A DNA stretch of 18,643 nucleotides from Methanomassiliicoccus sp. (GTDB lineage: Archaea; Thermoplasmatota; Thermoplasmata; Methanomassiliicoccales; JACIVX01), in contig DYTM01000002.1 in the NCBI GenBank assembly GCA_020725985.1, positions 1 to 18,643 of the forward strand. The letters run 5' to 3'. The first letter of the stretch is position 1. Each line of letters opens with the position of its first letter. Under the pieces are notes generated by a model. It ran no database searches. It saw nothing but the letters and a program-made list of their open reading frames with translations, and was not told the origin of the DNA. Below are positions 742 to 8,862 of this stretch, piece by piece. The position numbers and the translations under genes are program-made.

Positions 742-3700
742 TCAAGTCTCGAACACAGACGCCCTGAAGATCCACACGTCCGCCAGCTTGTCAGTGCCAA
801 CGCCGAAAACCGTCGGCAGAATGCTTCCAGGAACCTCCGAGATGCAAAGACCGAATGTCACCCTCCAGCTGCCGAGCTCCTTGCCCATGAGACTGGCGAC
901 GGCTGGCAGATTCGCCTCCACGAGGGCATCGAACCTCACGCTCGTGCCTTCGACCGCTCTGGAGATCATTCTCGGAAGCCCGATCTCGCCGAAGGCGCCG
1001 AACCTGACATAGACGTCCTCGAGGGCACTCTCCGCCGCATTGGTCTCCTCCCCGGCGTGGCAGGGGTTGATCATGTTGCCTATAGCGTCAGCGACCATCC
1101 GGATGAGATGCTTTATCGCCTTTTCAACGAACTCCCCGGTCGCGACGAGGCTGATCGCGAAACCCGCTCTGGCGGATGAGGAGTAGTCCTTGACCGCGAC
1201 CTCCACGTAGACCCGCAGCTCGACGATCGAGTCAGCGAGAGCCTCGATACAATTCTCGACGAGCTTCTCTACTGCCCGCTTGACGAGCCTCCCGAGTGCG
1301 TCCATGTTCACCGTCACATCGGAGATCTCCCCGAACGCACTCGCCGCCGCATCCAGGACTGCTTTCCGCATCCAGTCAAAATCCGTGTTGCCCGACGCCC
1401 TCTTCCCATTGTACCTTCCCGCCGTCTCCTCCTTGAACGCCCATCGGTCCGCGCCGTCGCTCACCCTCTGCCATGTGCGACCGTCGTTGTAGTAGTCGGT
1501 GGTCCATGGGGTTGAGTCCACGCGCTCGCCCGATGGATTTCGGAGGACGATGCATTCCATCAGGGGGAACTTGACCTCGCCTCCGTTGTCGAGCGCCTGG
1601 CCCTCCATGACGAAGACAGCGTGGGAACGGGGCTGGATGGAACGGTCCCCGAGGGCCTCGAGCCTCTGGGCGCCGTGGGAGGTCTCGATCGTCCATCCGG
1701 CGAGGCTCTGGGCGGTTTCGGTCGGGTTGTATATCTCGATCCACTCTCGTCCATAGTCGCTCCCAGGCGGGTTCCGCTCGTACTCGTTGATGACGAGATG
1801 GTTCGTGAAGGGAAGGTTGTACTTCAGTTCGAATCCGGCGTCGACGGAGCCTACCAGCCCGGGGAATGGCATGGGGATGCTCGACAGGAAGGCGCCGATT
1901 CCCGGCACTTCGGAGAGCGAGAGCCTGAGCCGCTCATATTGGACCACTTCCGGAACGTTGAGTTCGAAAGCACGATTCCCAAAGACACCCCTGATCTCCA
2001 CGAAATGCCTGAAGACCCTCATCAGAGGATCGATCACCACGCTCACCGTCCACGCGTCAGTGGAGAGGGTTGCATTCGCGAGAATGTCGTAGTAGCCCGC
2101 TCCCAGCCGAAGGATTCGAGCCGATATGGACAATGTGGCACCCAGGGCGCACAATGAGAAGGTGATCCTCAGGATGTCCTTGGTCGAGCCGAGAGCCAGA
2201 TCGGCCACGTTAGTCTGGACCGAGAAACTCAGTCCGAATATCGTCAGGTTGAACCGTACCGTTCCCAACAGTGCCGACACACCCTCCGCTATCCAGCCGA
2301 CCACCGTGGTGGCGCCTTTGAAGAAGAAATCCTGGACTGCCGAGACCATAGTCTGGAGCACGTTCGCGAGGAACTCGACGACCTTGACTGCGTAGGAAAG
2401 CAGCGTGGAGAACATCGTCTGCAGGAAGGAGAAGGCCTTCGAAATCCCGCCAGCGATGAACCCTATCCCTCCGCATACTTGGGACCATATCCCTTCAAGG
2501 AATCTCGAGACCTCCTTCAGAAGGGTGGAGGTGGATTCGTAGCGGACGCCTTTCAACGGCCAGCCGCTCTGAGCGCTTATCGTGAAGCTCATGTCGAAAG
2601 GGACTGTCGTCGAGGCGGAGGCGAGGTCCCCGAAGAGGCCTGAGGCTATCGCCTTCGCTTTGAGAACAGCGTTCAAGGAGCCCGAAAGGGAAACGTGCCA
2701 CTGAGTGGTGAACGGCCTGAAAGTGAAGTTGTCGAGGTCGGTAATGTGCCTGTTGGGATACTGCTCGTTCGGGCTGTATTCCCAAGGCTCGACGATATTG
2801 ACCCGGAGATCATTTCCGATATGCAAGGTTGGGCCGGAGCCGTTCGTCTCGGATTCGACACCCAGACCCTCCAGAATGGTCCATCCATCTTCGGAATGGA
2901 GAGTAAATTCGCCCAACCTTGGGAAAGGCAGGAAGACTGGATCTGCTCGGACCGCGAAGGAATTGCATGTGTCCTCGATCAGCCTGAGGGCCATGCCCGA
3001 CATCAATTGCTCGAACTCAGGGAATCCTCCGACCGTGCCGTAGACGATGCCTGAGAGTGTTTCCCCGAGCCATCCGCCGCGGTCGTCAGATGGTGAGTTG
3101 CCGAACGCGGCCTTAAAGGCGTCCAGCCTTAGATCGACCCTCGCATCGAACGCTCCAAGAATCTCCTCCTTCAAGCCCCAGTTTGATGACATCGCCTCCC
3201 AGTACACCCGATTGACTGCGATTCTCACCGATTCGGGACCGAAGCCGGACAACTGGGAGGAGAACTCATGAACCACTCCCTCAGCGAAGGCATGGATTGC
3301 CTCCTCGACGGTCGAGTTCCTCTCGAACAGCTCCTGCCAGTAGGAATCGATGAAGCGGAGGAAGGCCTCCCCCATCTGATCGACGATGAGGGTTGACTCG
3401 GTAGCGTAGTGGAGGGCCGTCTCCATCCAGGATTCGCGATCAAGGATTGCATCGCCTATCGTCTCCCGGAGGTTCTCCGCATATCCCGTATGGTCGAAGG
3501 GGTCGAATGAGGAGGACACGATCGGGAGATTGGTCTTGAATGCAATGCCTTGGGCGATGGATTTGATGAAGTTGTCAAGGGTCTCGGCAAACTCGCATGT
3601 TGCGATCTTGTACTGAGAATAGAACCATTTCCACGCATCGGTGGCGAAGAGATCGTACGGCTTGAAATCGACGTAACGAGGACCTACCAGCACCAATGGG

Positions 3701-5004
3701 AAGCTTTCGTTCGCGTCATTGAAGAAGACCATTCGATGCGCCGGGATCTCGATGAGGGCGTCCGGTGATCCATAGTTCATGTAGCGATAGTATGCCTCCT
3801 GGAAGCCAGCGGCGGCGAGACGTTCTCGAATCCATCCCAGCACCGAGTCCTGCAGGGAATCGACACCGAGCATCGCCTCGACTATGTACGAAAGGGCGAA
3901 ATTCGACAGGTCGGCCGCCTGCTCGACAAATTCGGCGGCATCGATGAGATGAAAGAACTCAAGCCACTTCAGCACCAGTTGATCTGCGACGGCGTACAGA
4001 CTCTCGGCCAAGATGAGCCTTGTGTCGTAGCCCTCCGAGCCGTAGAGACCGAGGAAGAGTTCGGCAGGATCCAGAGTCCCGCTTATGTTCCTGTCGGAAA
4101 GAAGATCGGCGATCCGGAGAGAGCCCGGCAAGTTCGTATCCTGCGCAAGGGAGTCGAGGGCCGATTGGTCGATCGCTCGGAAATGCTTCCGCTGTTCGAG
4201 AAGCAGGGCGAGGTTGAAGGCATCGACGACGTCCTGCTCTGTCAGGACGGTCGCCGTCCCGAGGCTCCCGTCCCTGGATCCGATACCGTATCCTCGTAGC
4301 ACTCGATCCTGGGCCAGCGCTGAGAGCTCGTATCGCACTGTGTTCTCGAACTCGCTCCTTCCCCCCGCCACCGAGTCGGAGAAACTCTGCAGCCGGTTCG
4401 TCAGAAAGGGGAACGGGAGGTAGATCGCTTCGCTGATCTCCCGCTCCCTGACAAGGAAACCGTCCTCGCCTCTTGCAGAGACCTTGCAGGTGCCGTAGAT
4501 CGAGAAGTATGCGGGAACGGTCGTCCTGTTCCATCCAAAGGCCCCGGACGGGCCCCCGACGAACTCGGGATACAACTCGTCCATGGTCATCCTGAGGAAG
4601 CTGAGAGAAACACTGGTTTCGTTTATGTCGATGAGGTGGCGACCGATGAGGATAGGATACCTGTCTTTGATGAACTCGTTGAGGGAGGAGTTGAATCTCC
4701 TGTTCATCTCGCTCTCGTTGAGGTCACGGATCTCTCCGATAACGTCCACTGCAATGGAGAGGGCGGCCTGTTCGATCTGGAGGACTGCGGAATCGATGGC
4801 TTCTTTCATCTCTCCGAGGGATTCCGAGCTTGGATGGTCGTCTCCTATGCGTGAGTTCATCCCGGAGATGAGAACGACGCTCGCGCTCGAGAAAACCAAC
4901 AGGAGGACTGCGACGAGCGAGAACGGCATCTGCCCCGATTTGGACTTCGTCAATCTATCCAGCGACTTCAGTGCGGAATACCAGACTTCGATCCTTTCTC
5001 TCAT
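742..5004 (-). CDS. Large membrane-anchored extracellular protein with lamin-tail domain (1420 aa)
   Basis: The protein starts with a short basic segment and one hydrophobic helix at about residues 27-49 (QMPFSLVAVLLLVFSSASVV), which probably acts as a signal anchor and leaves the rest outside the cell. A lamin-tail (LTD) domain is recognisable at about residues 1065-1205, with the family's INEY start, a WIEIYNPT strand, an LAGWTI turn and a late W-x-RVSDG segment. In archaea and bacteria this fold is usually found in secreted or surface proteins. A hydrophobic to amphipathic stretch lies near residues 840-930. The remainder is not recognisable to me: long alpha-helical parts first, then beta-rich parts before the LTD. 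There are few cysteines. The ATG at 5004 sits about 26 nt from a TATA-like box, implying a leaderless mRNA. A surface or envelope structural role is inference; no enzymatic motif is visible. Confidence 0.85.
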   Translation of the reverse strand: MRERIEVWYSALKSLDRLTKSKSGQMPFSLVAVLLLVFSSASVVLISGMNSRIGDDHPSSESLGEMKEAIDSAVLQIEQAALSIAVDVIGEIRDLNESEMNRRFNSSLNEFIKDRYPILIGRHLIDINETSVSLSFLRMTMDELYPEFVGGPSGAFGWNRTTVPAYFSIYGTCKVSARGEDGFLVREREISEAIYLPFPFLTNRLQSFSDSVAGGRSEFENTVRYELSALAQDRVLRGYGIGSRDGSLGTATVLTEQDVVDAFNLALLLEQRKHFRAIDQSALDSLAQDTNLPGSLRIADLLSDRNISGTLDPAELFLGLYGSEGYDTRLILAESLYAVADQLVLKWLEFFHLIDAAEFVEQAADLSNFALSYIVEAMLGVDSLQDSVLGWIRERLAAAGFQEAYYRYMNYGSPDALIEIPAHRMVFFNDANESFPLVLVGPRYVDFKPYDLFATDAWKWFYSQYKIATCEFAETLDNFIKSIAQGIAFKTNLPIVSSSFDPFDHTGYAENLRETIGDAILDRESWMETALHYATESTLIVDQMGEAFLRFIDSYWQELFERNSTVEEAIHAFAEGVVHEFSSQLSGFGPESVRIAVNRVYWEAMSSNWGLKEEILGAFDARVDLRLDAFKAAFGNSPSDDRGGWLGETLSGIVYGTVGGFPEFEQLMSGMALRLIEDTCNSFAVRADPVFLPFPRLGEFTLHSEDGWTILEGLGVESETNGSGPTLHIGNDLRVNIVEPWEYSPNEQYPNRHITDLDNFTFRPFTTQWHVSLSGSLNAVLKAKAIASGLFGDLASASTTVPFDMSFTISAQSGWPLKGVRYESTSTLLKEVSRFLEGIWSQVCGGIGFIAGGISKAFSFLQTMFSTLLSYAVKVVEFLANVLQTMVSAVQDFFFKGATTVVGWIAEGVSALLGTVRFNLTIFGLSFSVQTNVADLALGSTKDILRITFSLCALGATLSISARILRLGAGYYDILANATLSTDAWTVSVVIDPLMRVFRHFVEIRGVFGNRAFELNVPEVVQYERLRLSLSEVPGIGAFLSSIPMPFPGLVGSVDAGFELKYNLPFTNHLVINEYERNPPGSDYGREWIEIYNPTETAQSLAGWTIETSHGAQRLEALGDRSIQPRSHAVFVMEGQALDNGGEVKFPLMECIVLRNPSGERVDSTPWTTDYYNDGRTWQRVSDGADRWAFKEETAGRYNGKRASGNTDFDWMRKAVLDAAASAFGEISDVTVNMDALGRLVKRAVEKLVENCIEALADSIVELRVYVEVAVKDYSSSARAGFAISLVATGEFVEKAIKHLIRMVADAIGNMINPCHAGEETNAAESALEDVYVRFGAFGEIGLPRMISRAVEGTSVRFDALVEANLPAVASLMGKELGSWRVTFGLCISEVPGSILPTVFGVGTDKLADVWIFRASVFET

Positions 5005-5025: not shown

Positions 5026-5033
5026 AAAATAAA
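5026..5033 (-). promoter_or_regulatory. TATA-like box for the lamin-tail protein gene
   Basis: The minus strand reads TTTATTTT, centred about 26 nt before the ATG at 5004. This spacing fits an archaeal promoter giving a leaderless transcript. No Shine-Dalgarno sequence is present before that ATG. Confidence 0.5.
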
Positions 5034-5112
5034 GCCGTTGAAGCTACGTGCACACTACACCAGATCGATGTGGACGGCGGGCTCCTCGAAAACGCCGCGA
5101 CAATCGCTCCTA

Positions 5113-5865
5113 TCAGGGAGGGGTCTTTCCATGCGTCCTGTCGACAGCGGCCAGCATGAAGCCTTCCAGATGCCCTGCGAGGAATGGGTTGTCGGAGTAG
5201 CCACATATGGAGAGATCGGGCGACGCTATCAGGGCCTGATTGCCGTCACTTATCACATCCGTGGCGAGGAGACCTGATCTGCGATACACCTTCGTGGCCT
5301 CTGGCACTTTGACAAAAGGCTCGACCACGAGTGTGATCCCAACCCCCCTCTTGACCGCGTCTCTGAACTTCTGCGAATGAAGGGTTCGTATGGCGGGCAT
5401 GGATGGCGTGGAGATGAAGAGCCGATTCGTCGCCGAATCGAGTATCTCCCCTATCTTGACAAGCACTCTTTCTCTACCTAGAATGGTGAAGACCAGCTGA
5501 GGTGTGCCCTTCTCACTGAGAATCCCTCGAACCGCCTCGAGCTTGTCGAACGCCTCCCCCACCTCGTGGATGAGCTTCTCCCGTACCTCGCGCGGGGGCA
5601 CGGGGTGGAAGATCGTGGGGCGTCCTTCACTCATACTGACGTATCCCCTTTCCTTCAATGCCTGCAATGCCTTGTACGCAGATGTCCTGGGAATACCTCC
5701 CAGCCCGGCCACCTCGTCTGCCGTCCCCCGCCCCTGAGCGATGAGGGCGGTGTACGAACGAGATTCGTAATCCGACAACCCGATCATGCGGAGAACGGAA
5801 GCGATCTTGGCGTACTCTTCCTCAATGCCTTTGAGGTCCAGATTCAACACGTGCATCAGGTCCAT
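5113..5865 (-). CDS. TrmB-family transcriptional regulator
   Basis: This 250-residue protein has an N-terminal winged helix-turn-helix at about residues 25-90. It has the TrmB-type features LGLSDYESR-like entry (here IGLSDYESRSYTAL), a recognition helix IPRTSAYKALQAL and a wing EGRPTIFHPVPP. A short helical linker follows, then a C-terminal domain with FISTPSMPAIR and VEPF segments that resembles the phospholipase D-like sensor half of TrmB proteins. TrmB regulators repress or activate depending on whether they bind downstream or upstream of the TATA box; some bind sugars, but no ligand can be inferred here. The gene diverges from the Tes-ferredoxin-GGR operon with 75 nt between starts, and a perfect palindrome lies 10-28 nt upstream of its ATG, so autoregulation and control of the lipid operon are likely. 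The start could also be the ATG at codon 4. Confidence 0.9.
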   Translation of the reverse strand: MDLMHVLNLDLKGIEEEYAKIASVLRMIGLSDYESRSYTALIAQGRGTADEVAGLGGIPRTSAYKALQALKERGYVSMSEGRPTIFHPVPPREVREKLIHEVGEAFDKLEAVRGILSEKGTPQLVFTILGRERVLVKIGEILDSATNRLFISTPSMPAIRTLHSQKFRDAVKRGVGITLVVEPFVKVPEATKVYRRSGLLATDVISDGNQALIASPDLSICGYSDNPFLAGHLEGFMLAAVDRTHGKTPP

Positions 5866-5874
5866 CTTACATCT

Positions 5875-5893
5875 TGTAGCTAAAGGAGCTACA
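5875..5893. promoter_or_regulatory. Perfect inverted repeat, probable operator of the TrmB-like regulator
   Basis: The sequence TGTAGCTAAAGGAGCTACA has two 7-bp arms that are exact inverted complements, separated by 5 nt. It lies between the divergent regulator and the tes operon. It is immediately upstream of the TATA-like element on the tes side and between TATA and the start codon on the regulator side. That position would allow activation of tes and repression of the regulator gene. Binding by the neighbouring protein is inferred from position and symmetry. Confidence 0.6.
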
Positions 5894-5897
5894 TAAG

Positions 5898-5905
5898 TAT
5901 TAAAT
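5898..5905 (+). promoter_or_regulatory. TATA-like box of the tes-ferredoxin-GGR operon
   Basis: TATTAAAT lies 43 nt upstream of the TTG start at 5941, which places the expected transcription start near 5925-5930 with a short leader carrying AGGTGA at 5931-5936. Read on the other strand (ATTTAATA), the same A/T element could serve the divergent regulator gene, whose ATG is about 37 nt away. Confidence 0.5.
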
Positions 5906-5940
5906 CGTTACCTTGGCAATCGCAACCGAAAGGTGAGCAA

Positions 5941-7491
5941 TTGATAGCCAAGGAAAGCGTCCTTCCGAAAGGACTTCCGAAGAAGACAGAGTCCCTCTGC
6001 CCAGAGTGCAAGAGCATCATCCCGGCGACGATCTATGAGTCTGAGGGGAGGGTACTCATGGAGAAGGAATGCCCGGTTCACGGCAAGGTGACCGATGTCT
6101 ACTGGTCCGACGCTGCTCTCTATCTCAAGGCTGAAGGCTTCGCCTATGATGGCGTGGGAGTGCTCGATCCCCTCATCAAGGGAGCGAAGGTATGCCCGAA
6201 CGAATGTGGTCTCTGCGACCTGCACTTGAGCCACACCTCCCTCGCGAACCTCGACCTCACCAACAGATGCAACCTCAAATGTCCCATCTGCTTCGCGAAC
6301 GCCAACGCCGCGGGTTACGTATATGAACCTTCATACGAAGAAGTCGTGAGCATGCTGGAGAACTTGAGGAATCAGAAACCCGTGCCGACTCCCGCGGTCC
6401 AGTTCTCGGGCGGGGAGCCGACCATCTATCCGAGATTCCTCGACGTGATCAGGAAGGCGAAGGAACTTGGATTTGCCCAAATCCAGATCGCCACCAACGG
6501 GATCAGAATCGCCCAGGACGAGGAGTTCCTCAGGAAGGCGGCCGAGGCCGGTCTCAATACAATCTACCTCCAGTTCGACGGGCTCAGGGAGGACATCTAT
6601 GTCACGACCAGGGGGCGATCGCTGCTGGATGTGAAGATGAAGGTCATCGAGAACCTGAGGAAGATGGAGAGGCGGCCCTCGGTGGTTCTCGTCCCCACGA
6701 TTGTGAAGGGAGTTAACGACGACCAGGTCGGACCGATCCTCAGGTTCGCCATCGAGAACTCCGATGTGATCAGGGGGGTCAACTACCAGCCAGTTGCTTT
6801 CACGGGACGGATAAGCAAGGAGGAAAGGGAGAAGGGACGGTACACGCTGACCGACCTCGTCCACGACCTGGAGGAGCAGACTAGCTACGTGAACAGGGAC
6901 GATTGGTATCCCGTTCCCACGGTCGTGCCGATTTCCACGCTCGTCTCCTCCCTGCTCGATCAGCCGAAGGTCACCTTCACGTCGCATCCTCATTGCGGTC
7001 TCGCCAGCTACCTCTTCATTCAGGACGCGGACAATGTCATTCCGCTGACGCGATTCGTCGAGGTCGAGCCCCTGTTCAAGGAGCTCTACGCACTCTCGGA
7101 GAAGGCGGAGAAGGCGAAGGTCAAGTTCCCGTCAAAGGTCAAGGCCCTGAACATCCTGAAGAAGCACATCAGCAAGGAGAAGGCGCCGGAGGGACTGAAC
7201 CTGATCAAGTTCCTGCGGATGATGGAGACGGTCTTCAGCGACGAGACGAAGTCCGGCCTTGCCGAGTTCTCGTGGAGGATGATGTTCGTCGGGGGGATGC
7301 ACTTCCAGGACGACTACAACTACGACATTGAAAGGGTGAAGAGGTGCGTCATCCACTATGCCACTCCCGATGGGAGGATCATCCCCTTCTGCGCCTACAA
7401 CGGCGGACCGACCTACAGGGAGGAAGTGGAGAGGAAGTTCTCCGTTCCGATCGAGGAGTGGAGGAAGACCAGGGGGACGGAGTTCACCTGA
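5941..7491 (+). CDS. tes: Radical SAM tetraether lipid synthase (Tes)
   Basis: Tes couples the phytanyl chain ends of two archaeol-type diether lipids, forming two new C-C bonds to give membrane-spanning tetraether (GDGT) lipids. The 516-residue protein matches the family's known layout. An N-terminal rubredoxin-like metal site is visible as C20-x2-C23 and C44-x2-H47. A cysteine cluster C85-x3-C89-x2-C92 follows. The radical SAM motif is C110-x3-C114-x2-C117, with the SAM-binding FSGGEPT near residue 155. Further conserved cysteines lie at HPHC (352), about 469 and PFC (484), which fit the extra iron-sulfur clusters of the family. The start codon is TTG, chosen because AGGTGA sits 4 nt upstream and the next in-frame ATG (codon 40) would cut the metal site. 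It heads an operon with a ferredoxin 13 nt downstream and then GGR. Confidence 0.9.
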   Translation: MIAKESVLPKGLPKKTESLCPECKSIIPATIYESEGRVLMEKECPVHGKVTDVYWSDAALYLKAEGFAYDGVGVLDPLIKGAKVCPNECGLCDLHLSHTSLANLDLTNRCNLKCPICFANANAAGYVYEPSYEEVVSMLENLRNQKPVPTPAVQFSGGEPTIYPRFLDVIRKAKELGFAQIQIATNGIRIAQDEEFLRKAAEAGLNTIYLQFDGLREDIYVTTRGRSLLDVKMKVIENLRKMERRPSVVLVPTIVKGVNDDQVGPILRFAIENSDVIRGVNYQPVAFTGRISKEEREKGRYTLTDLVHDLEEQTSYVNRDDWYPVPTVVPISTLVSSLLDQPKVTFTSHPHCGLASYLFIQDADNVIPLTRFVEVEPLFKELYALSEKAEKAKVKFPSKVKALNILKKHISKEKAPEGLNLIKFLRMMETVFSDETKSGLAEFSWRMMFVGGMHFQDDYNYDIERVKRCVIHYATPDGRIIPFCAYNGGPTYREEVERKFSVPIEEWRKTRGTEFT

Positions 7492-7504: not shown

Positions 7505-7678
7505 ATGATAGTCACTATCGAGAAATGCATGCACTGCGGGGCATGCGTCGGAACCTGCCCCGTCAATGCGATCTACCTGAACGATGTCCTTCTTGAGTTC
7601 GACGACGAATGCAACCGGTGCGGCAGATGCGTGAGGATCTGCCCCGTCGGCGCGCTCGAGCTGGAGGCGAGGAAATGA
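7505..7678 (+). CDS. 2[4Fe-4S] ferredoxin
   Basis: This 57-residue protein is almost entirely a bacterial-type two-cluster ferredoxin. The first binding motif is CMHCGACVGTCPVNAI and the second is CNRCGRCVRICPVGAL, both C-x2-C-x2-C-x3-CP. The ATG at 7505 follows a GAGGA ribosome binding site, and the stop codon overlaps the next start (ATGA). The gene lies between tes and GGR, both of which need low-potential electrons: Tes for reductive cleavage of SAM, GGR for reduced flavin. A dedicated electron donor role for one or both is a reasonable inference from position. An open frame extends further upstream, but it covers the end of tes and has no reason to be used. Confidence 0.93.
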   Translation: MIVTIEKCMHCGACVGTCPVNAIYLNDVLLEFDDECNRCGRCVRICPVGALELEARK

Positions 7679-8862
7679 GGAAGGAGTACGACGTCGTTGT
7701 CGTGGGCGCAGGCCCGGCCGGGAGCATGACGGCGAAGCATGCCGCGCTGGGAGGGGCGCGCGTCCTGATGGTCGAGAAGAGGCAGGAGATCGGCTCCCCG
7801 GTGAGATGCGGAGAAGGCCTGTCGAGAGCCTCGCTGGATGAGGTCGGAATACGTCCTGACAGGAAGTGGATCGCGACCGAGGTGGACGGGGCGAAGATCG
7901 TCTCCCCTGGCGGCCATGCGTTTGTCATCAACGAGAGGATGGCTGGGAACGAGGTCGGAATGGTGCTTGAGAGGGACATGTTCGACAAGGCGCTCGCCGC
8001 GGACGCCGCGAAGGCCGGGGCGGAGATCATGCTCAAGACCTCGGCGGTGGGCCTGATCACAGAAGGGGGAGCGGTGAAGGGGGTCAAGCTCGCCTCCTAC
8101 GGGAAGACGCTCGACGTCGCCGCGGGATGCGTCGTCGGAGCCGACGGCTTCGAATCGCAGGTGGGGAGGTGGGCGGGGATCGATACGACGCTCAAGCCCA
8201 GCGACGTGACCTCCTGCTTCCAGTACCGGCTCACCAACATCGACCACGACTACAAGTACTGCGAGTTCATCGTCGGCAGCGCCGCGCCCGGAGGGTACGT
8301 GTGGATCTTCCCGAAGGACGAGCACACGGCGAACGTCGGGATCGGGGTGCTGCTGTCGAAGCTGAAGAAGCCTGGTCAGGTCAAGAAATACTTGGACGAC
8401 TTCATCGAGAGCGACGAGAGGCTGAGGAAGGGACAGCCCCTGGACGCGGTCAGCGGGGCGGTCTCGGTCTCGCCGCCGGTCGAGAAGGCGGTCGTGGACG
8501 GCCTGCTCCTTGTCGGGGACGCGGCCCGGATCATCGACCCGATCACGGGCGGGGGCATTCACAACGCTTGCATAACCGGCACCTTCGCGGGGAAGGTCCT
8601 GTCGAAGGCGGCGGAGGCAGGGGACTTCAGCGAATCCGCCCTGATGGAATACGAGAGGCTCTGGCGCAACAGGCTCGAGAACAATCTCTGGCGCAACTGG
8701 ATGGCGAAGGAGAAGCTCATCACGCTCTCGGACGAGACCTTCGACAAGATCATCCAGACGCTCGCCGAGGTGGGGGTGGAGAAGATGTCAGTCGGGAACA
8801 TACTGGCGGTCATCAAGAGGAAATACCCCGAGCTCGTCAGGGAATTCGAGGAATTCATCTGA
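7675..8862 (+). CDS. Geranylgeranyl reductase family protein (digeranylgeranylglycerophospholipid reductase)
   Basis: This FAD-dependent enzyme saturates the double bonds of the geranylgeranyl chains of archaeal ether lipids. The 395-residue sequence has the dinucleotide-binding G11-x-G13-x2-G16 near the N terminus, the family-specific RCGEGLS at about 44-50 with its conserved Cys45, the substrate-site motif PGGYVWIFP at about 205-213, and the second FAD motif GDAARIIDPITGGGI at about 280-295. Length is typical of the family. The chosen ATG overlaps the ferredoxin stop by four bases and follows a GGCGAGGA ribosome binding site; a longer frame starting at 7609 would run across the ferredoxin. 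Last gene of the tes operon. The exact chain substrate (lipid or free geranylgeranyl diphosphate) cannot be told from sequence. Confidence 0.92.
   Translation: MRKEYDVVVVGAGPAGSMTAKHAALGGARVLMVEKRQEIGSPVRCGEGLSRASLDEVGIRPDRKWIATEVDGAKIVSPGGHAFVINERMAGNEVGMVLERDMFDKALAADAAKAGAEIMLKTSAVGLITEGGAVKGVKLASYGKTLDVAAGCVVGADGFESQVGRWAGIDTTLKPSDVTSCFQYRLTNIDHDYKYCEFIVGSAAPGGYVWIFPKDEHTANVGIGVLLSKLKKPGQVKKYLDDFIESDERLRKGQPLDAVSGAVSVSPPVEKAVVDGLLLVGDAARIIDPITGGGIHNACITGTFAGKVLSKAAEAGDFSESALMEYERLWRNRLENNLWRNWMAKEKLITLSDETFDKIIQTLAEVGVEKMSVGNILAVIKRKYPELVREFEEFI

Follow-up and report, generated by a model that had tools for sequence, protein, structure and literature searches.

Regulators of the TrmB family act in archaea according to where they bind: a site downstream of or over the promoter leads to repression, and a site upstream of the transcription factor B (TFB) recognition element (BRE) and the TATA box leads to activation (PMC4158304, PMC4706686, PMC9426492). 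The closest described systems are TrmBL1, or Tgr, of Thermococcales; TrmB, the mal operon repressor of Pyrococcus and Thermococcus; TrmBL2 of Thermococcales; and OxsR of Haloferax volcanii. We analysed an 18,643-nucleotide stretch of DNA from Methanomassiliicoccus sp. (contig DYTM01000002.1; 'the window'), in which a TrmB-like regulator is encoded divergently from tes, the gene for the radical S-adenosylmethionine (SAM) enzyme tetraether lipid synthase, and a perfect palindrome lies between the two genes. The palindrome is very probably the operator, or binding site, of the regulator, and judged from sequence and its conservation the two form a real and functionally coherent new TrmB-family regulator/operator pair at a tetraether gene. 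No transcriptional regulator of tes is announced in the parts of the open-licence PMC literature consulted.

The pair resembles each of the described systems in part. As in TrmBL1/Tgr, the regulator has a TrmB-type winged helix-turn-helix (wHTH) and a palindromic operator of similar size, and its action is proposed to be set by position relative to BRE and TATA (PMC4158304, PMC4706686). TrmBL1/Tgr, however, recognizes the TGM palindrome TATCAC-N5-GTGATA, which the TGTAGC(T) arms found here do not match, and controls a sugar regulon, whereas the motif here is TGTAGY-N7-RCTACA, with one or few targets that are membrane-lipid genes, and the regulator lacks the sugar-binding lobe. TrmB carries that lobe beyond residue 239, and the 250-residue regulator has none. 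TrmBL2 is the best structural match and belongs to the same length class (264 residues against 250) with the same overall architecture, but it is a chromatin protein that binds DNA non-specifically (PMC7325993), whereas a specific operator is kept here. OxsR is likewise a TrmB-family protein, and the motif from which it activates is located upstream of BRE/TATA (PMC9426492); OxsR differs in having a single wHTH without a phospholipase-D-like (PLD-like) domain and a conserved cysteine, C24, at a modelled dimer interface, while the sole cysteine of the regulator described here, C221, lies within its PLD-like domain.

The palindrome, TGTAGCTAAAGGAGCTACA (positions 5875-5893), consists of perfect 7-bp arms, TGTAGCT and AGCTACA, around the 5-nt spacer AAAGG. 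The sequence-only reading had placed it between a divergent TrmB-like regulator (5113-5865, minus strand) and tes (5941-7491, plus strand), and both assignments are borne out by profile matches (PF01978 and NF045702, respectively). There is no second match to it at up to three mismatches within the window, where 0.20 would be expected; 35 of 200 shuffles hold at least one such match, and the real palindrome matches with none. In its own genome (1.51 Mb, 74% complete) it is the sole match at up to one mismatch, with one extra match at two mismatches (G000:C117:54-72). On the tes side, the palindrome ends at a putative BRE, TAAG (5894-5897, plus strand), part of an A-rich stretch that is kept in an ungapped alignment of the sites, and a gap of 4 nt separates it from the TATA-like box of tes, TATTAAAT (5898-5905), which was recognized by inspection and stands at a constant distance from the operator in relatives. 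On the other side, 9 nt lie between the palindrome and the ATG of the regulator at 5865. Because no other TATA-like box is evident by eye in the gap, the same box, read backwards as ATTTAATA, may also serve the regulator. Archaeal TATA boxes generally begin about 30 nt ahead of the transcript; with that spacing, transcription of tes would start at about 5928 and that of the regulator, from the same box, at about 5876, within the left arm. A position of -26/27 for the archaeal TATA box is given in PMC4158304. Since the palindrome is upstream of the tes TATA box, it is not part of the expected tes transcript. An RNA element was considered for it and rejected, with no Rfam match in 5700-6100. The coding sequence of tes begins with TTG at 5941, and a putative Shine-Dalgarno sequence, AGGTGA (5931-5936, plus strand), lies ahead of it.

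Regulator and site occur together throughout the order. Of 120 Methanomassiliicoccales genomes, 46, including this one, encode an orthologue of the regulator (counted from 160 bits upwards; four others give weak hits only). All 46 have the regulator, complete or truncated by a contig end, in divergent orientation to tes, with 72-92 nt between the two (G104 has such a truncated copy beside tes and a second, full one on another contig). The proposal of the sequence-only reading was staked on the palindrome being kept upstream of tes orthologues that retain the neighbouring regulator, and it is kept in 46 of 46: 14 of the 14 arm bases are matched in 14 genomes, 13 in 18, 12 in 12 and 11 in two, while the spacer is variable. 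Nearly all genomes without an orthologue (71 of 74) belong to a single family, f2. In that family, the 37 tes loci read from 36 genomes without the regulator match at most 10 of the 14 arm bases, the lowest shuffle p being about 0.08 (the scan took in 40 loci: these 37, one with the regulator, in G044, and two second copies of tes). The only f2 genus that keeps the regulator, g21, keeps the site too, in four of four cases (12-13/14). G060, G064 and G066, order genomes without an orthologue that are 63-78% complete, were left out of this reading. Conservation in relatives is far beyond chance.

The association extends to the rest of Thermoplasmatota. A scan of genome contigs returned 203 encoded relatives of the regulator, of which the best 80 were kept. 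Among these best 80, 36 are divergent from tes (37 with L088, where tes is cut by the contig end and its start is still visible); three are divergent from genes for a ferredoxin and a geranylgeranyl reductase (GGR), hereafter Fd-GGR; 19 have a GGR-family gene after them on the same strand, 27-35% identical to the GGR of the window; and the flanks of the other 21, some of them short, revealed neither arrangement. From these relatives we chose 24 further genomes, mainly with the regulator not beside tes; it lies within the examined flanks of tes in only two of them, G141 and G142. All 25 tes loci of these genomes carry a TGTAGY-N7-RCTACA-like site (scores of 8.1-24.0 from a matrix whose training set was Methanomassiliicoccales alone; p 0.002-0.016 relative to mononucleotide shuffles), mostly directly ahead of A-rich bases and a TTTAAA-like box. 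When the genes are unlinked, then, the site remains at tes and turns up at the regulator only in loci with Fd-GGR on the divergent side; it is therefore the lipid promoter that appears to be the conserved target, autoregulation coming with the divergent layout.

In a separate phylum sample of 116 genomes, 29 have an orthologue and 66 have tes. Orthologues score at least 240 bits and the next hits less than 100; because such distant TrmB-like hits occur in several genomes, the site is linked to this orthologue. It is present (score of at least 8, a limit chosen after the scores were seen) at 12 of 17 tes promoters in genomes with the regulator and at one of 20 in genomes without. The latter are 20 of the 33 regulator-less tes genomes outside f2, hand-picked rather than random; nine with sub-cut-off hits were left out, together with G150, G155, G236 and G243. 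G222 offers 158 nt only and G153 too little upstream DNA, and G159, G176 and G216 share their tes coordinates with G122, G142 and G141, already scored in the 24-genome set.

The conserved core motif is TGTAGY-N7-RCTACA. In two ungapped alignments (44 and 34 distinct sites, set B of which omits eight loci of family f9), the arms carry 1.5-1.9 bits per base and the spacer 0.2, and the TATA columns, at constant distance from the operator, carry 1.6 and 1.0 bits. The right arm, beside the BRE, is better conserved than the left. Symmetric double changes also occur: TGTCGC with GCGACA in G135 and G138, and TGTAGT with ACTACA in G128, G133 and G143.

How far does the regulon extend? The exact pattern TGTAG-N9-CTACA is found at tes in 33 of the 46 order genomes with the regulator, the other 13 having variant arms, and in 25 of those 33 it is the sole copy in the genome, with further copies in eight. 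A search for other copies, which the sequence-only reading had called for in this genome, yields a single exact copy in 25 of the 46, which fits a local regulon. In the 74 regulator-less genomes, one or two matches are present in ten, never at tes coordinates. A scan with the arms plus BRE/TATA at up to two mismatches in 40 chosen genomes gave 65 matches, as did a reversed control; 40 of the 65 are at tes, in 38 genomes (one site being counted on both strands), and G010 and G122 have no tes match. As the 25 off-tes matches are fewer than the 65 of the control, they are as a set no more than chance. Nine off-tes stretches were looked at further, and claims are limited to targets that recur or are separately supported.

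Two such targets emerge. In G120, G121 and G122, a site (19.0, 22.3 and 13.7) is located in the gap between the regulator and the Fd-GGR genes divergent from it, and no other site hit in these loci exceeds 9. In addition, five of 24 genomes with the archaeal SAM synthetase gene (PF01941) have a site ahead of it, with a TATA-like box spaced roughly as usual (G134, G130, G127, G129 and G125; scores 16.6-20.9, p 0.003-0.007; loci L314, L316, L317, L323, L325-L327 and L339). It is absent from the SAM synthetase gene in the genome of the window, in seven other Methanomassiliicoccales and in 11 further Thermoplasmatota. The regulator is therefore not strictly confined to tes, and the idea of a dedicated tetraether regulator holds as to the site at tes and is too narrow in view of the same site elsewhere at Fd-GGR, SAM synthetase, MCM-like and rpl3-like genes. 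The last two concern genus g14 (family f6), where perfect or one-mismatch palindromes occur upstream of an MCM-like gene (L204, L206, L208), at a distance of about 225-290 nt, and of an rpl3-like gene (ribosomal protein L3-like; L203, L205, L207), at about 425 nt; by eye, neither has a TATA box at tes-like spacing. The names MCM and rpl3, like MetK below, are readings of translated starts. A look-alike with one mismatch, TGTAGCTTCGGGAGCTATA, recurs in several genomes; in G003 it falls inside a tRNA-Pro gene, and identical hits elsewhere were set aside.

The regulator itself combines a wHTH, a coiled coil and a PLD-like domain, as seen by profile and structure comparison. The wHTH matches the TrmB profile PF01978 (71 bits, cut-off 25.6), whereas the effector-binding domain PF11495 scores 20.9 bits, below its cut-off of 22.2, and over profile positions 2-98 of 233 only. 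The protein also falls below the NCBIfam equivalog cut-offs for TrmB (55.7 of 600 bits), TrmBL1 (58.7 of 650), TrmBL2 (39.3 of 530) and halo TrmB (60.2 of 500). Its match to the structure 3qph stops at residue 239 of that chain, where the model has reached residue 245 of 250, so that no protein is left for a counterpart of the sugar-binding lobe, and the sugar-binding residues G320 and E326 (PMC4158304) have no match in it. A sugar sensor is therefore rejected on domain grounds: sensing by the TrmB route is unlikely in a protein without the lobe, and sugar status, one of the signals first suggested for this regulator, is dropped in favour of a presumably non-sugar ligand. Within the PLD-like domain, D207 is invariant in the alignment of regulator relatives and stands where we take the HKD motif to be, from a comparison by eye; its histidine and lysine are not kept, which suggests a binding rather than a catalytic domain. 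C221 is kept in 28 of 28 rows and in at least 90% of 57 rows (alignment A2 was taken without L159, which has a stop inside the range). As to the signal, C221 and the degenerate HKD region are no more than leads.

Taken as a whole, these data are best explained by an operator of the regulator that is common to two promoters, with autorepression and direct action at the tes promoter, and we hold this explanation with considerable confidence. TGTAGY-N7-RCTACA would be bound by a homodimer of the regulator. The predicted transcription start of the regulator gene, just before the ATG, falls within the site, so that binding should silence this gene, and autorepression is the best reading for it. On the tes side, BRE/TATA follows directly after the site with hardly any variation in distance, which implies that a bound dimer would act directly on the loading of TFB and the TATA-binding protein (TBP). 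The sequence-only reading, whose positional rule agrees with PMC4158304 and PMC4706686, had one site turning tes on and the regulator off; the geometry fits the second half, but leaves the first only slightly favoured, as the right arm abuts the BRE. Recruitment, and thus activation of tes-Fd-GGR, has about an even chance, and we rank it slightly above occlusion, and thus repression, to which we give somewhat less than that. The rival explanation on this point is a plain repressor of both promoters, which would exclude TFB from the tes BRE and block its own start site until a ligand frees both. Such a protein, which we regard as a serious contender at a little under even chances, would account for a right arm that stops where the BRE starts; repression of malE by P. 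furiosus TrmB takes place at a site that overlaps BRE/TATA (PMC4158304, PMC4706686); and outside Methanomassiliicoccales many promoters of tes combine an A-rich BRE with a TTTAAA-like box, which may need no activator. The site is, however, upstream of the TATA box and does not cover it, and its nearly constant distance from TATA across the phylum is in keeping with contact with the basal machinery. Moreover, of three templates with an upstream site that were tested with P. furiosus TrmBL1, two were activated and one was unresponsive (PMC4706686).

Several observations weigh against an operator shared by two promoters, or limit it. A clear site is missing from five of the 17 regulator-bearing genomes of the phylum sample, each of them a member of family f9; in that family, three of eight tes promoters pass and no operator can be defined in the other five. 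(Upstream of tes in these five loci, L278-L280 and L283-L284, the half-sites are degraded or everted, G230 with ACTACA...TGTAGC being an example.) Conversely, the tes of G245 (L294) has a clear site (14.7; the next regulator-less promoter scores 6.9) and no detected orthologue, possibly owing to an assembly gap, a divergent orthologue or a recent loss. Regulators that are not divergent from a lipid operon have no TGTAGC-type dyad at their own promoters, so autorepression would not be a general property. The second tes copies of G025 (L199, G025:C1) and G046 (L200, G046:C16) have no operator (8/14), and one copy in each may therefore be outside this control. Covariation between the arms is weak (451 of 546 complementary; shuffles give 437.9 +/- 5.1, and 7 in 1000 of them reach the observed count), too weak to be used alone as proof of dimer binding. 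The exact pattern is missing from 64 of the 74 regulator-less genomes as well, so its rarity is partly general; the reversed control is commoner in most genomes, and base make-up thus also keeps the motif rare. Finally, the genomes are related, and the counts are non-independent trials. The case of G245 would suit a palindrome that belongs to another DNA-binding protein, with the regulator a bystander beside tes, but site and regulator are jointly missing in the f2 genomes read and co-occur even when the genes are unlinked, and we regard this as improbable. More improbable still is a TrmBL2-like chromatin protein with an incidental palindrome, given the missed TrmBL2 equivalog cut-off and a specific palindrome kept at one promoter, which misfits non-specific binding. 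A larger doubt concerns the object of control, which could be SAM economy: the regulator would control SAM synthetase together with the SAM-consuming Tes, and tetraether levels would follow SAM supply. The five SAM synthetase sites favour this, as would a two-mismatch match ahead of a bacterial-type MetK in G142 (L320), which alone proves nothing since such matches are at chance level. The 19 genomes without a site at SAM synthetase speak against it, as do the Fd-GGR targets, which are not known to use SAM, and we consider it unlikely.

Downstream of the site, Tes (516 residues) matches the NF045702 equivalog (663.2 bits, cut-off 450) and has Zn_ribbon_HMPTM and Radical_SAM domains. A ferredoxin with two 4Fe-4S motifs (7505-7678, plus strand; PF00037 and others) starts 13 nt after it, and the ferredoxin gene overlaps by 4 nt that of a GGR family protein (7675-8862, plus strand; GGR_cat PF22578; TIGR02032, 225 bits, cut-off 158.8). 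On the other side of the regulator, 742-5004 (minus strand) encodes a 1420-residue protein that has a hydrophobic stretch at its N terminus and contains a Lamin Tail Domain (PF00932); a relative of this protein comes after the regulator in many of the best 80 regulator loci. Upstream of this gene, at about 5033-5061 (minus strand), a motif like TGTAGNNTGCANNTAGCTC stands before a T/A-rich box and recurs by eye in several relatives. CAGTTAG-like motifs are also found upstream of tes in many regulator-less f2 genomes, perhaps reflecting another regulator.

A broader proposal, which we put forward only tentatively, is that this is a phylum-spread regulator of membrane core-lipid maturation. Its degenerate PLD-like domain would sense a polar-lipid or SAM-related ligand, and the regulator would join cross-linking by Tes, saturation by Fd-GGR and, in some lineages, SAM supply by SAM synthetase through one operator fixed relative to BRE/TATA, limiting itself through the same site. 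The operator/regulator pair is a first handle on the control of tetraether membranes: it consists of a named regulator and a 19-bp operator, kept in distant relatives and jointly missing in one family, and with these two in hand the question of control becomes directly testable in vitro or in cultured Thermoplasmatota.
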